From a virus, in IMG/VR virus record IMGVR_UViG_3300010391_000093, positions 1 to 48,738 of that record: DNA of 48,738 nt. The stretch is one strand, 5' to 3'. Below the pieces are notes generated by a model. It made no database searches. It was given only the letters and a program-made list of their open reading frames with translations, and was not told where the DNA came from. The translations under genes and the position numbers were made by a program. Positions 9,181 through 41,643 of the stretch are shown here, piece by piece (position 1 is the first letter of the stretch; the number at the start of each line of letters is the position of its first letter).

Positions 9181-9834
9181 TTAGGCTTTCTCTACGTGAA
9201 TGGTACGCGATCCCGCCGCCCACAATTGCCGCCAATCGGCCGCGCGTAGTTGCTTTCGGTTCCCGGTGAGAAAGGCAGCTACGGCTGCCCGCGTGTCCAC
9301 GTCCACGCTCTCCAGTACCTGCCCGAGATCAGTTCGATACTCGAAGGCCGCGAAGGCCGGGTCCTCAGTCATGAGCAGATACTCGGGCGTGTCATCCTCC
9401 GCCTCGGTCACAGCGTCAAGCGATGCCTGCGCATGGATGTCGTGCTGGGATACCCAAGTGGTGCCTCCGCACTGGCACAGTCCTCCGCGCGCGCCCTCGA
9501 CCGGCCGCGTGCGGTCGCAGGTCCGGCAGCGGAGTGCGGTGATCGGGTACGCCTGGTACGCCTTCATCACCACGGTGCGGATGCGATTCTGGCAGGATGC
9601 CATGAGATAGTTGAGGAATGAAGCCTTGTCCTGCGTGTAGCGGCTCTGGCAATGCCAGACGATCAATCGCAGTTCCTGCATCACGTCCTCGTATTCCAGG
9701 CCGGGCAGATCCCGGTGGGTCGAGGACACCACGGCGCGAGCCGCGTACTTCCCTAGAAGGGGGGTGACCTCACGAACGAGATCCTCGTAGGCTATCCCGG
9801 CCACCACTGCGGCGGTTAGTTCTCTCGGCGTCAT
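9181..9834 (-). CDS. Sigma-70-like factor with inserted zinc ribbon
   Basis: The N-terminal half resembles sigma region 2: LEYEDVMQELRLIVWHC, then a helix ending SFLNYLMASCQNRI. A CRTCD...LCQCGG zinc ribbon follows at about residues 102-122, and a C-terminal helical part (from about residue 165) could be region 4. It may redirect host RNA polymerase to phage promoters, or be a sigma-like DNA-binding protein used in replication. The ATG at 9834 has GAGAGGAG upstream and overlaps the primase gene by 65 nt. The zinc insertion is unusual. Confidence 0.6.
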   Translation of the reverse strand: MTPRELTAAVVAGIAYEDLVREVTPLLGKYAARAVVSSTHRDLPGLEYEDVMQELRLIVWHCQSRYTQDKASFLNYLMASCQNRIRTVVMKAYQAYPITALRCRTCDRTRPVEGARGGLCQCGGTTWVSQHDIHAQASLDAVTEAEDDTPEYLLMTEDPAFAAFEYRTDLGQVLESVDVDTRAAVAAFLTGNRKQLRAADWRQLWAAGSRTIHVEKA

Positions 9835-13166: not shown

Positions 13167-14888
13167 TTAAGCTGCCCGCTCGAAACGCAGATCTGCTAGG
13201 TCCGCCAGTGCGGCCTTGCCGCCAACGCCATCGAGATTGAACTCGACCGCATTCTCGTCCTTCCAGTGCGTGCCAATCGTCCCCTCGGCCAACATGCGGA
13301 GGGGGAACTTCTCCCCGTTGGCAGCGAGCAGCGCGACCATGTGCCGAGGGTTCTCCATGACGCGGAGGATCTTTTCGGCGACCTGCATCCAGTCCGCCTC
13401 GCGGATCTCGAACAGCAGGGCATCGTGAATATCCCCGACCACCCGTGCCTCCTCGGGGTCGAGCGTCTCGTTGAGTAGCTCGATCAAGGAGGCCAGGTTC
13501 ATGTCCCCGCCGGTTCCCTGAATGGGGCTGTTGATAGCTTGGCGTTCGGCATCGCCGACCGCGATGTGATCGTGTGAGTGAATGTTGGTCAGGTGACGGT
13601 AGCGGCCGGTTGGGCTCTGTACCCAGCCCTTCGCGTGCACCGTCCGGCGCTGGCGTTCGTGGTAGGAAACCAGGCCGGGAAACAGTGAGAAGAACAGGTT
13701 ACGGATCGCCGTGGCCTCGGCCAGGGTGAACTCGATCCCGTACTGGTCGAGCGCGTACTGAACGAACTTCTTGGCCCCCATGCCATACTGGAACCCCAGC
13801 ACCACCGGCTTGGCTCGGTTGCGGTCCTGCTTTGTAATCTCACTTTCTGGGACGCCACGAATACGGGCAGCCACGTAGCGGTAGATGTCACCCGAGGTCT
13901 TGAATACCTCCAGCATATTCGCATCGCCGGATAGCCACGCCATGATGCGAACTTCGATCTGGCTGTAGTCAATCTCCAAGAACAGATAGCCAGGTGCTGC
14001 GCCGAAGCACGCGCGCATGAATGCGATCTTCGGAACCTGCTGAAGGTTGGGGGTATCACACGACCGACGGCCGGTGACGACCAGCGCGAGGTTGAAGTAG
14101 GGATGGATCCGCCCGTCATCTCCGAGCCAGAACAACCATTGCCGGAAGAAGTCCCGGCGCTTCTGTAGTTCCTTGATTTCCTTTAGGAGAGAGAGGGCGG
14201 GGTGATCGAGCCGAGCAATAGTCTTTTCGTCGGTCGCTGGCTCGTGCCGAGCAGTGGTCCAAGCAATCGGCTCCAGGCCGAGGCCACGCGGACGCCTGCC
14301 ATAGATCCATTCGCGCAAGAAGTTGTCGTTCTGAAACACAGAACGCGTCCCCGCCGTTTTGCGCTTGGCTGCCGCGGCTTCCGCCTCCGCCAGCAACATC
14401 GGATCGACGTGTCCGCGAAGCTCCGCGTCAAGCGCCATGATCCGCTCGGCGAGTTCTGCATCCCGCGTGTGTACTCGCGACTGATCAAGCCAGATCCCAT
14501 TGCGCTCGACGATCGCGAACGCCTCTACGCCGGGGAGGCTAAGCGTCTTGGCGAGACGAGCTAGTGGTTGATCGATCCGCAGGGCCTCGCGCTGCTTCAG
14601 GTAGAGCAGGTGGGTGTACGCGGTGTCCACAGCGCAGTACCGGCCGAGGCTGTCCTCTCCGTACAGGTCGCCGAGGTGCGACGCGAAGTCCTCGTTGTTC
14701 TTGCTGGGCCGCTTCTGCTGCCGGGCGAGGATGTCCTCTGGCTTGCCCCAGGCGGTGCCGAAGTACTGATTGCCCTTTCCCCAGTTCGTGACCCCGAGGT
14801 GAAGCGTTGCCTGATCGAGCAGATTTAGTGGCAGCTGCTCGTCGAGCAGGTGGGCTGCGACCTGGGTATCAAAGCCTACGGGACTCAT
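13167..14888 (-). CDS. Family A DNA polymerase (with exo III motif only)
   Basis: Replicative DNA polymerase of 573 aa. Motif A is LEIDYSQIEVRIMAWLSGD, motif B is the NRAKPVVLGFQYGMG helix, and motif C is GDIHDALLFE. The first 100 residues are not a separate domain but the second half of a 3'-5' exonuclease: FDTQVAAHLLDE and the YCAVDTAYT exo III motif. The exo I and II motifs sit at the end of the preceding gene. The ATG at 14888 overlaps that gene's stop as ATGA. The two polypeptides probably assemble into one proofreading polymerase. Confidence 0.9.
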   Translation of the reverse strand: MSPVGFDTQVAAHLLDEQLPLNLLDQATLHLGVTNWGKGNQYFGTAWGKPEDILARQQKRPSKNNEDFASHLGDLYGEDSLGRYCAVDTAYTHLLYLKQREALRIDQPLARLAKTLSLPGVEAFAIVERNGIWLDQSRVHTRDAELAERIMALDAELRGHVDPMLLAEAEAAAAKRKTAGTRSVFQNDNFLREWIYGRRPRGLGLEPIAWTTARHEPATDEKTIARLDHPALSLLKEIKELQKRRDFFRQWLFWLGDDGRIHPYFNLALVVTGRRSCDTPNLQQVPKIAFMRACFGAAPGYLFLEIDYSQIEVRIMAWLSGDANMLEVFKTSGDIYRYVAARIRGVPESEITKQDRNRAKPVVLGFQYGMGAKKFVQYALDQYGIEFTLAEATAIRNLFFSLFPGLVSYHERQRRTVHAKGWVQSPTGRYRHLTNIHSHDHIAVGDAERQAINSPIQGTGGDMNLASLIELLNETLDPEEARVVGDIHDALLFEIREADWMQVAEKILRVMENPRHMVALLAANGEKFPLRMLAEGTIGTHWKDENAVEFNLDGVGGKAALADLADLRFERAA

Positions 14889-15940
14889 CGAATTTCCCCC
14901 GTCGCGGAGTCGACCGTGAACCCATAGCGGTCAACAAGGCTCCAGACCCAGCGCAGATCGAAGGAGACGTTGTGCCCATTGATCCGGGAGAGCAGGACTA
15001 GCTCACAGAACGACCGGACGATCTCACGCTTCAACGGCTCGTTGTAGTACCACGGCGCGTCTGGGTGTTCGAGGCCGAGGTTCCACACCATGATCCCGTT
15101 GCCCCGGTCTGCGCCGGAAGTGATCCCGGCCAACCACACGCGAGAATAGTTCGCGCGCACGCTGAGCATGCCGCGGGTCTCTAGGTCGAAGGAGATCAGG
15201 CCGCGGCTAGCCGCCTCAGCGAGGTCGTACTGCGCCGTGCGCCAGGCATCCCCGCTATGGATGTCGATCACCTCGACAGCGGGATTGGCCCCCTGCCCCT
15301 GGGAGAGCTGAATCCACTTCATCAGGTCAGCCGCGAAGGCTGGGTGCAGCTTCAGGTCGTCGATGACCTTATCTGGATTGATCGTCGGGACGATCCAGAT
15401 TGTCAGGGTCGGGTCATCTGGGTGCGTCCACTCGAACGCCTTACCTCGGCGCTTAGAGATACCCGCCGCGTGCGTGAAGAAGTAGTAAGCCGACTCCCCC
15501 ATAGCAAAGATGGCCACCGGCCGCAAGCGGGCGATCTCCTGCAGGAGGTAAACGGCGCACGCCTTCTGCGCCTGCTTAATGTCGCGGAGACTAGCCCCCT
15601 CGGAAACGCATTTCAGGGCGTACGTCTGATAGACGTTGTCGAGCGGGAAGTCCAGGTCCTTCTCCGCCAGTGCCTTCATGTAAAGCAGTCCTCGCACTCC
15701 GCCGGGGAGACCCATGCGATCTTCGCTCGGGGTTGGACTCTCACCAATAATCATGCCGGGACCGGCTCGGCCGGTGCCCATCATGCAGACCGTCATGCTA
15801 TTCGAGTGCAGCGGACAAAGCGCGCACGCGCTGTTGCGAACATCCCGCCAGAGTGGGAGCGTCGACGGGTGGATCGGGTCCGCCTCCTGCGGCTTGATCT
15901 TCCGTGGCGGCTCCCGGTATTTGGCGAAGTCGCTAGTCAA
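14885..15940 (-). CDS. UDG-superfamily domain fused to first half of 3'-5' exonuclease
   Basis: The N-terminal 210 residues resemble a family 4-type uracil-DNA glycosylase. Cysteines at CALC and C52, with more later (KCVSEG, KACAVY), could hold a 4Fe-4S cluster. GMIIGESPTPSED is motif A-like and VPTINPDKV is in the motif B position. Since neither matches the textbook motif exactly, activity is uncertain. Residues about 245-350 hold exo I (LISFDLETRG) and exo II (INGHNVSFDLRWV) of the polymerase proofreading domain. The SPO1 polymerase is known to carry an N-terminal UDG-like region. Here the protein is cut after exo II. Confidence 0.8.
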   Translation of the reverse strand: MTSDFAKYREPPRKIKPQEADPIHPSTLPLWRDVRNSACALCPLHSNSMTVCMMGTGRAGPGMIIGESPTPSEDRMGLPGGVRGLLYMKALAEKDLDFPLDNVYQTYALKCVSEGASLRDIKQAQKACAVYLLQEIARLRPVAIFAMGESAYYFFTHAAGISKRRGKAFEWTHPDDPTLTIWIVPTINPDKVIDDLKLHPAFAADLMKWIQLSQGQGANPAVEVIDIHSGDAWRTAQYDLAEAASRGLISFDLETRGMLSVRANYSRVWLAGITSGADRGNGIMVWNLGLEHPDAPWYYNEPLKREIVRSFCELVLLSRINGHNVSFDLRWVWSLVDRYGFTVDSATGEIR

Positions 15941-16337: not shown

Positions 16338-17789
16338 CTATCGAACTAGCTCAGCCTTCAGCCCGCTCTGCTCCTCCCACCGTCGGATCGCCGTCTGCAC
16401 GTACTGCGGGTCAAGCTCCATGCCGTAGCAGGAGCGGCCGACCAGGTCTGCGACCAGCAAGGTGGTGCCTCCGCCGAGGAAGGGATCAAACACGATGTCC
16501 AGTTCGCGCGAAGTGTTGGTGATCGCCCTGCGCGCTAGACCAAACGGCTTTTCCGTAGGATGGTACTCATGCTTCGACTTGCGCTGTGCACGGTAGACGT
16601 TGGTTTGGAAGCGGTGGCCGATCCAGTGGTGCTTCGCACCCTCGCGCCAGCCGTACCAGATGGGCTCGTAGGCCCGCTGGTGATCGGACCACCCGATGGT
16701 GGCGTTCTCCCCGACCTCGCTCTCCTCGTCGGCTCCGGTCTTGAGCCAGAGCAGGGTGTCCGACCAGTGCCCGCCCTCCTTCTGCATGGCGAGATTCAAG
16801 ATCGGCGTCTGCGAGGAACTCATGCAGATATAGATCGCGCCGTCGACGTTCTGCAGAAGCATGCGGGCGAAGCCGCGGACGAAGTCCACCCAGGGACCGG
16901 CGAGAACTTCCTCAAAGCCGTCACCCGTGTAGAACATGTCGTCGTTCTCGATCGCCTCGCGAACTGAGTTCTGGATCACCGCGTGAGCACCGCCGATGTA
17001 CTTGACGTTGTAGGGCGGGTCGGTGAAGGCCATCGCAGCCTTCTTGCCGCGCATGAGCTTGGCGACGTCGGCTTCGTCCGTGCTGTTCCCGCACATGACG
17101 CGGTGCCCGGCGAGCCGGAACACCTGACCACGCTTGACCTGAACCTTACCGATCATCACGACCGGAGCCGCGTTTTGAATCTCGTCGGCACCCTCGTCCG
17201 AGACGTTCAGGGTGTGCTTCGCCTGCACTCGACGCTCCGCTAGCAGTGGCTGCGCTGCCTTGCGGACATCCTTCGCAGTCACGGTCTTCAACCCGCGATC
17301 GGTTGCCATCGCAACCGCCGTCTCAAATGCCTGCACCAGCAGGTCGGGTGTCTCGGGCCGGAAAGTAGGACGGCCCCGCCCATCTTCTTCGCCGGTCGTT
17401 CCTACAAGGGACCGCGGAGGGGCGGGGAGCAACGGGAGCAACTCTCGCGAAGCGCGCTCAGAGAGACTGATATCCACCACGGTGGATAATAGGCCGACCG
17501 TACGCGCGTAGTCCGTGAGTTGATACGCTCGCGCGTGGCCCACACTCAGGCCTCGCTCCTTGCCGAGGTAGGCGTTCACGTAGTCGTCAAAGGTGTTGAA
17601 CTGACGCTCTCGGTACAGACCTCCAAAGCGGATCGCCTCAAGGTCTCGCCCCATTGCGAGACGGGCCTCGGACTCCTTGCGGTCGTTCGTGAGGATGCGC
17701 TTCTCAAGCTCCAGCAACTCCGCGCTAGGGCCGGTGTCTGGAAGGTCCAGCACCTCAACGAGCGCGTCCGAAATCTCTTGCGTTGTCAT
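16338..17789 (-). CDS. DNA (N6-adenine or N4-cytosine) methyltransferase, beta class
   Basis: Amino-methyltransferase of 483 aa. The catalytic TDPPYN motif (IV) comes before the AdoMet-binding FDPFLGGGTTL motif (I), the beta-class order. The first 200 residues are a separate helical region with a DUF3102/ParB-like flavour (SVGHARAYQL, then VVDISLSERASRELL), found in phage methyltransferases. It may modify phage DNA against host restriction. A TACCAT element lies 25 nt before the ATG, which also has an AGGAGG site. A 19-bp palindromic sequence inside the gene (17470-17488) recurs at 43203-43221. Confidence 0.9.
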   Translation of the reverse strand: MTTQEISDALVEVLDLPDTGPSAELLELEKRILTNDRKESEARLAMGRDLEAIRFGGLYRERQFNTFDDYVNAYLGKERGLSVGHARAYQLTDYARTVGLLSTVVDISLSERASRELLPLLPAPPRSLVGTTGEEDGRGRPTFRPETPDLLVQAFETAVAMATDRGLKTVTAKDVRKAAQPLLAERRVQAKHTLNVSDEGADEIQNAAPVVMIGKVQVKRGQVFRLAGHRVMCGNSTDEADVAKLMRGKKAAMAFTDPPYNVKYIGGAHAVIQNSVREAIENDDMFYTGDGFEEVLAGPWVDFVRGFARMLLQNVDGAIYICMSSSQTPILNLAMQKEGGHWSDTLLWLKTGADEESEVGENATIGWSDHQRAYEPIWYGWREGAKHHWIGHRFQTNVYRAQRKSKHEYHPTEKPFGLARRAITNTSRELDIVFDPFLGGGTTLLVADLVGRSCYGMELDPQYVQTAIRRWEEQSGLKAELVR

Positions 17790-41255: not shown

Positions 41256-41334
41256 TGGTCAGGGAGGGAGGATTCGAACCTCCGATCTCCTGCTTCCAGG
41301 GCAGGTGGGGACGGCCAAACTCCCCTACTCCCTG
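41256..41334 (-). tRNA. tRNA-Pro(TGG), with C33
   Basis: A 76-nt cloverleaf plus an encoded CCA. The acceptor CAGGGAG pairs with CTCCCTG, the first pair C1-G72 and A73 being typical for bacterial tRNA-Pro. The anticodon stem CCTGC/GCAGG closes a loop CCTGGAA, giving anticodon TGG with C at position 33 instead of the near-universal U. The T arm GGAGG-TTCGAAT-CCTCC is perfect. Confidence 0.75.
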
Positions 41335-41335
41335 A

Positions 41336-41410
41336 TGGCGTCGCGTACGGGATTCGAACCCGTGATCTCCACCTTGACAGGGTGGCGTGCTGCCGCTGCA
41401 CCAACGCGAC
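41336..41410 (-). tRNA. tRNA-Asp(GTC)
   Basis: Perfect cloverleaf: acceptor GTCGCGT/ACGCGAC, anticodon stem CCACC/GGTGG with loop CTGTCAA (anticodon GTC, normal T33), T arm ACGGG-TTCGAAT-CCCGT, G73 and encoded CCA. Only 1 nt separates it from tRNA-Pro. Confidence 0.9.
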
Positions 41411-41487
41411 TGGAGCCCCGAGCACGGAATCGAACCTGCGACCCCCCGCTTACAAGGCGGGCGCTCTGCCTGCTGAGCTACCGGGGC
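41411..41487 (-). tRNA. tRNA-Thr(TGT), T arm with extra base
   Basis: Acceptor GCCCCGG pairs with TCGGGGC (one G-U). Anticodon stem CCCGC/GCGGG with loop CTTGTAA, anticodon TGT. The T arm GCAGG-TTCGATT-CCGTGC needs a bulged G to pair, and position 73 is T. CCA is encoded. Probably a tRNA-Thr, with signs of structural drift. Confidence 0.75.
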
Positions 41488-41561
41488 TGGCTCCGGGTCG
41501 AGGGCTCGAACCTCGGTCGGGTGGTTAACGGCCACCTGTCCTACCACTGGACGAACCCGGA
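41488..41561 (-). tRNA. tRNA-Asn(GTT), with C33
   Basis: Acceptor TCCGGGT/ACCCGGA with G73 and CCA, as in bacterial tRNA-Asn. Anticodon stem GGTGG/CCACC with loop CCGTTAA: anticodon GTT but C at position 33. T arm CGAGG-TTCGAGC-CCTCG is perfect. Directly joined to tRNA-Thr. Confidence 0.8.
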
Positions 41562-41562
41562 A

Positions 41563-41635
41563 TGGCACGGCGCTAGGGTGTCGAACCCCACAGGGCCGGT
41601 TTTGGAGACCAGCCTGCGCCCGGCGCGCACCGCGT
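41563..41635 (-). tRNA. tRNA-Trp(CCA)-like, degenerate
   Basis: The anticodon arm CTGGT-CTCCAAA-ACCGG (anticodon CCA), T arm TGGGG-TTCGACA-CCCTA and an encoded G-CCA are clear. The acceptor stem pairs only partly with either possible 5' end and the D arm is short and GC-rich. It may be a decayed or non-canonical tRNA-Trp. The exact 5' end is uncertain. Confidence 0.55.
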
Positions 41636-41643
41636 GTCACAGT

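Follow-up and report, generated by a model that had tools for sequence, protein, structure and literature searches.

A phage DNA polymerase gene divided between exonuclease motifs II and III, a candidate for a replicative enzyme made as two chains

The window analysed here is a virus contig of 48,738 bases with 63.6% G+C in which the polymerase is encoded by two ORFs on the minus strand, the strand to which all features of the locus given below belong. The first ORF, gene 1 (15940-14885), encodes 351 aa comprising a UDG-like domain and the first half of an exonuclease with motifs exo I and exo II, and the second, gene 2 (14888-13167), encodes 573 aa comprising the second half of the exonuclease with motif exo III and a family A polymerase. 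Both ORFs are present where an earlier inspection of the letters by themselves, hereafter the sequence-only reading, had placed them. Gene 1 starts with TTG, which overlaps the preceding stop codon as TTGA (15940-15937), and tight start/stop overlaps of this kind are common across the genome of the window. At its other end, the stop codon of gene 1 (TGA, 14887-14885) and the start codon of gene 2 (ATG, 14888-14886) share the tetranucleotide ATGA (14885-14888), as read directly from the sequence, and the frame of gene 2 is -1 relative to that of gene 1. A Shine-Dalgarno-like GGGGG (14896-14900) lies 7 nt before the ATG; its duplex with the anti-Shine-Dalgarno sequence amounts to -8.6 kcal/mol, a value reached at 8% of random positions, and the run is also a homopolymer in which a length error could sit. 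A one-base difference within a stretch of about 46 nt (14885-14930) would fuse the frames of the two genes.

The domain content of the locus, UDG plus exonuclease plus family A polymerase, is certain. Gene 1 matched the UDG superfamily in Pfam (E 1.9e-9) over residues 63-189 (15374-15754), an assignment shared by profile and residue comparison and in keeping with the UDG domain that had been proposed for the first half. A profile built from gene 1 together with its relatives matched family-4 uracil glycosylases at about 1e-46, and the structure model of gene 1 retrieved family-4 UDG and UdgX folds with Foldseek (1vk2, 4zbx and UdgX, probability 1.00). The resemblance to family-4 UDGs and UdgX thus covers the fold and the four cysteines at positions 39, 42, 111 and 128, which are retained in gene 1 and which we take to be Fe-S ligands, but it does not extend to the sequence motifs. 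Family 4 is defined by GE(A/G)PG as motif A and HPS as motif B, whose His contacts and holds the uracil (PMC10359453), whereas gene 1 has GESPT and NPD at these places, with Asn188 (15377-15379) replacing the motif B His; many relatives likewise vary at the UDG motifs. Because of this replacement, glycosylase activity of the domain is doubtful, and its residues suggest that it may serve for binding rather than excision.

Downstream of this domain, gene 1 carries exo I, FDLET, with catalytic D252 and E254 (15179-15187) that are D and E in 158/158 relatives, and exo II, NVSFD (14957-14971), whose catalytic D328 is D in 153 of the 158 relatives and E in the other 5. Apart from the break itself, no lesion was found in gene 1. 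Gene 2 begins with MSPVG, followed directly by FDTQVAAHLLDE (residues 6-17), and then carries exo III, YCAVD (14625-14639), with catalytic Y84, conserved in every one of the 158 relatives, and D88, conserved in 157. All five exonuclease residues are therefore intact, D252, E254 and D328 on gene 1 and Y84 and D88 on gene 2, and the exo I, II and III residues that mark a DnaQ-type exonuclease are found across the two chains. Gene 2 continues with a family A polymerase domain at residues 211-542 (13263-14258), identified as DNA_pol_A (PF00476, E 2.4e-67) by Pfam and by profile and residue comparison, in which motif A (DYSQIE), motif B and motif C (IHD) are present and D307, E312, K360, H488 and D489 are retained. 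The sequence-only reading had described the contents of both genes in these terms, and its account stands.

Motif B of gene 2 contains Leu364 (13797-13799) at the position equivalent to Phe762 of E. coli Pol I, where the relatives have Phe in 154/158 cases and Leu in none (0/158). Leu762 has been tied to slower and more accurate synthesis and to temperate phages (PMC6302109).

In profile searches against the Klenow fragment, gene 1 aligned with chain residues 6-112 and gene 2 with residues 117-604, which places the cut within the exonuclease fold, after exo II and before both the FDT motif and exo III, confirming that the ATGA overlap falls within one fold. Likewise, a single PHROG family, phrog_17, is covered consecutively by gene 1 (507-747) and gene 2 (758-1239). 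The structure models of the two chains are confident, with pLDDT values of 86.6 (gene 1) and 88.1 (gene 2), although both were built from alignments of unbroken relatives, which puts autonomous folding of the half-domains outside their reach.

Relatives were gathered with two scans of viral contigs and phage records. A total of 157 distinct relative ORFs are continuous across the cut point, so the single-protein relatives that the sequence-only reading had suggested looking for exist in number and its view of a mid-domain division into two polypeptides as unusual is borne out. Breaks at the cut point in virus loci are contig ends only; in one distant bacterial contig (L002) the match begins at the cut point, yet the ORF extends upstream. 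Genes for UDG-exonuclease-PolA fusions occur in phages of Streptomyces, Lysinibacillus, Pseudomonas, Serratia and other hosts. The UDG-like region, which had been likened to the case of SPO1, is thus widespread on phage family A polymerases and not a peculiarity of that phage. The fusion is an ordinary phage enzyme made as one continuous polypeptide, and it is the cut in the window that is exceptional. Elsewhere in the gene, breaks were found in four relatives only: three loci (L020, L037 and L063) have breaks farther downstream than that of the window, with the parts separated by 0.5-2 kb, which are probably introns or endonuclease insertions, and one (L016) changes frame near the C-terminus.

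The closest relatives are IMGVR_UViG_3300049911_000129 (L099) and IMGVR_UViG_3300036766_001792 (L176), with about 45% identity over gene 2. They share the helicase and flanking genes with the window in synteny, and the tree groups the three with support of 100/99, but in both the gene is unbroken, of about 878 aa (878 in L099), with the usual short stretch between exo II and FDT. Because these two and the other relatives are unbroken, the split is either derived within the lineage of the window itself or an error. The terminal branch of the window is long (1.93 changes per site). With either half by itself as protein query, viral and genome contigs returned no close relatives, a gapped DNA pattern across the cut found no second copy of the junction, and a search based on the helicase found no near kin beyond L099 and L176. 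Unbroken close relatives had been named beforehand as a finding that would speak against a real split; the nearest ones are indeed unbroken, but at about 45% identity they are too distant to expose a base error. In L099 (3990-6626), polymerase motifs A and B are separated by about 27 more residues than in the window.

Split phage polymerases are already known, but they are divided either between domains or in the polymerase part. The polymerases of Caudoviricetes sp. ctfzr933 (MW202455), Streptomyces phage Zuko and Lysinibacillus phage LysYB1 have the domains, order and motifs of the window, and the phiLo family A polymerase, for which a structure has been solved (9qhs), matches it in domain set, order and exonuclease and polymerase motifs; however, all four are one polypeptide, whereas in the window the enzyme is divided into two between exo II and FDT. 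In some T4-like Aeromonas phages the replicative polymerase is made as two chains, gp43A and gp43B, as proposed here, but it belongs to family B and is cut at another site. Phage PolA from two ORFs, as in the window, has been described in the OM43 phages MEP401 and MEP402, in which the cut is within the polymerase domain and a small ORF lies between the parts (PMC10580990); their exonuclease is whole, while in the window it is the exonuclease that is cut, with no insert. In related Bacillus phages, the same polymerase domains are divided among ORFs by endonucleases (PMC10684548). The cut of the window is not described in the phage papers searched.

To judge how often such a junction would arise by accident, we took 23 intact G+C-rich relatives and introduced one-base indels at each position beyond base 600 (79,824 indels). 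ATGA was produced by 13% of them, and because of this frequency the overlap alone is weak evidence for a split and was dropped as a proof of it. Only 0.28% of the indels gave ATGA together with an equally good Shine-Dalgarno site, and the pair is moderately strong evidence. Between exo II and FDT, 158 relatives have 24-30 aa (median 25), and the window has 38 aa when the halves are placed end to end. The surplus of about 10 aa, roughly DSATGEIR in gene 1 and MS in gene 2 (14885-14917), has no counterpart in the relatives and contains the GGGGG and the ATG, and these residues look like new chain ends.

The reading that best accommodates these observations, to which we give a probability of roughly 0.55, is that the locus encodes a real, translationally coupled two-chain polymerase whose exonuclease site is rebuilt in trans. 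The production of both chains, their assembly and their activity are deduced here from sequence. Under this reading, one message would yield the replicative DNA polymerase as two polypeptides: ribosomes ending gene 1 would restart at the overlapping ATG, aided by the GGGGG site, and the coupled synthesis of the chains in the same place would favour their joining. Three carboxylates of the exonuclease would come from gene 1, the fourth and the tyrosine from gene 2, so that the proofreading site would be present in the heterodimer only. The retention of all catalytic residues despite the long branch fits proofreading rebuilt in trans, although it would demonstrate function only if the split were old. 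Of the two outcomes offered by the sequence-only reading, an obligate two-subunit enzyme or low-level frameshifting, the former is thus the better fit. More tentatively, and with the odds somewhat against it, the UDG-exonuclease half could be an exchangeable proofreading subunit, with the ratio of the chains setting copying fidelity during infection.

The main rival, clearly less probable than the two-chain enzyme but of real weight, is that the junction reflects either a contig error or a recent frameshift. Most of that weight falls on the contig error, a minority prospect in which one wrong base near 14885-14930 conceals an ordinary UDG-exonuclease-PolA fusion with a longer loop. That all 157 of 157 relatives spanning the cut point are single ORFs and none has the same cut argues for it, as do the unbroken, syntenic genes of the two nearest relatives and the fact that the junction is known from a single sequence, with no second copy found by the DNA pattern search. 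The five-G run at the spot could explain an error and the apparent Shine-Dalgarno site alike, 13% of simulated indels generate ATGA, and the gene 1 model folds its tail into a small hairpin (bridge V343-I350), which would allow the extra residues to form a loop within an unbroken protein. On the other hand, ATGA and the Shine-Dalgarno site coincide in only 0.28% of simulated indels, joining the halves would lengthen to 38 aa a stretch that spans 24-30 in the 158 relatives, and none of the other conserved genes of the contig, among them those for the helicase, RecA, head protein and portal, appears broken.

The second part of this rival, a real and recent frameshift after which proofreading (or the UDG part) was lost, the free polymerase chain sufficed and gene 1 began to decay, is improbable. 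It would account for a cut common to no relative, for the Asn already standing in place of the UDG motif B His and for the long branch of the lineage, but it sits poorly with a full set of exonuclease residues, a gene 1 free of further lesions and a good start site for gene 2.

Programmed -1 frameshifting, in which some fused polymerase would be made alongside the two chains, is very improbable and was rejected: gene 2 does lie in the -1 frame, with a G run and a Shine-Dalgarno-like site upstream, but no X XXY YYZ heptamer occurs within the final 60 nt of gene 1, a slip on G GGG GAA would leave a mispair in the A site, and the folding of the RNA downstream of the junction is matched by shuffled sequences (z -0.55). 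The frameshifting half of the alternative in the sequence-only reading is thus not supported. Equally remote is the idea that the gene was formerly interrupted by an intron, intein or homing endonuclease of which a remnant is seen here. It was likewise rejected since the 4-nt overlap leaves an insert no space, the excess comes to just some 10 residues and an Rfam search of the window returned no intron, even though such elements interrupt phage polymerases, as in the Bacillus phages (PMC10684548) and probably in the gapped breaks of L020, L037 and L063.

If the two-chain enzyme is real, it would be a natural cut through an exonuclease active site, implying that separate chains of a replicase can reconstitute a DnaQ fold in trans and offering a natural handle to turn proofreading on and off. 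Should the junction prove to be an error, it would illustrate why split genes known from single contigs need reads.

Several other features were noted in the window. An N6/N4 DNA methyltransferase is encoded at 16338-17789, two genes upstream of gene 1, and a cluster of five tRNAs, Pro(tgg), Asp, Thr(tgt), Asn and Trp, occupies 41256-41640. A small protein encoded at 9181-9834 has a weak match to sigma-70 region 2, below the Pfam cut-off, and is a possible phage sigma factor. Finally, an RNA ligase family protein is encoded at 518-1471, and both L099 and L176 have a gene of similar appearance close to the polymerase.
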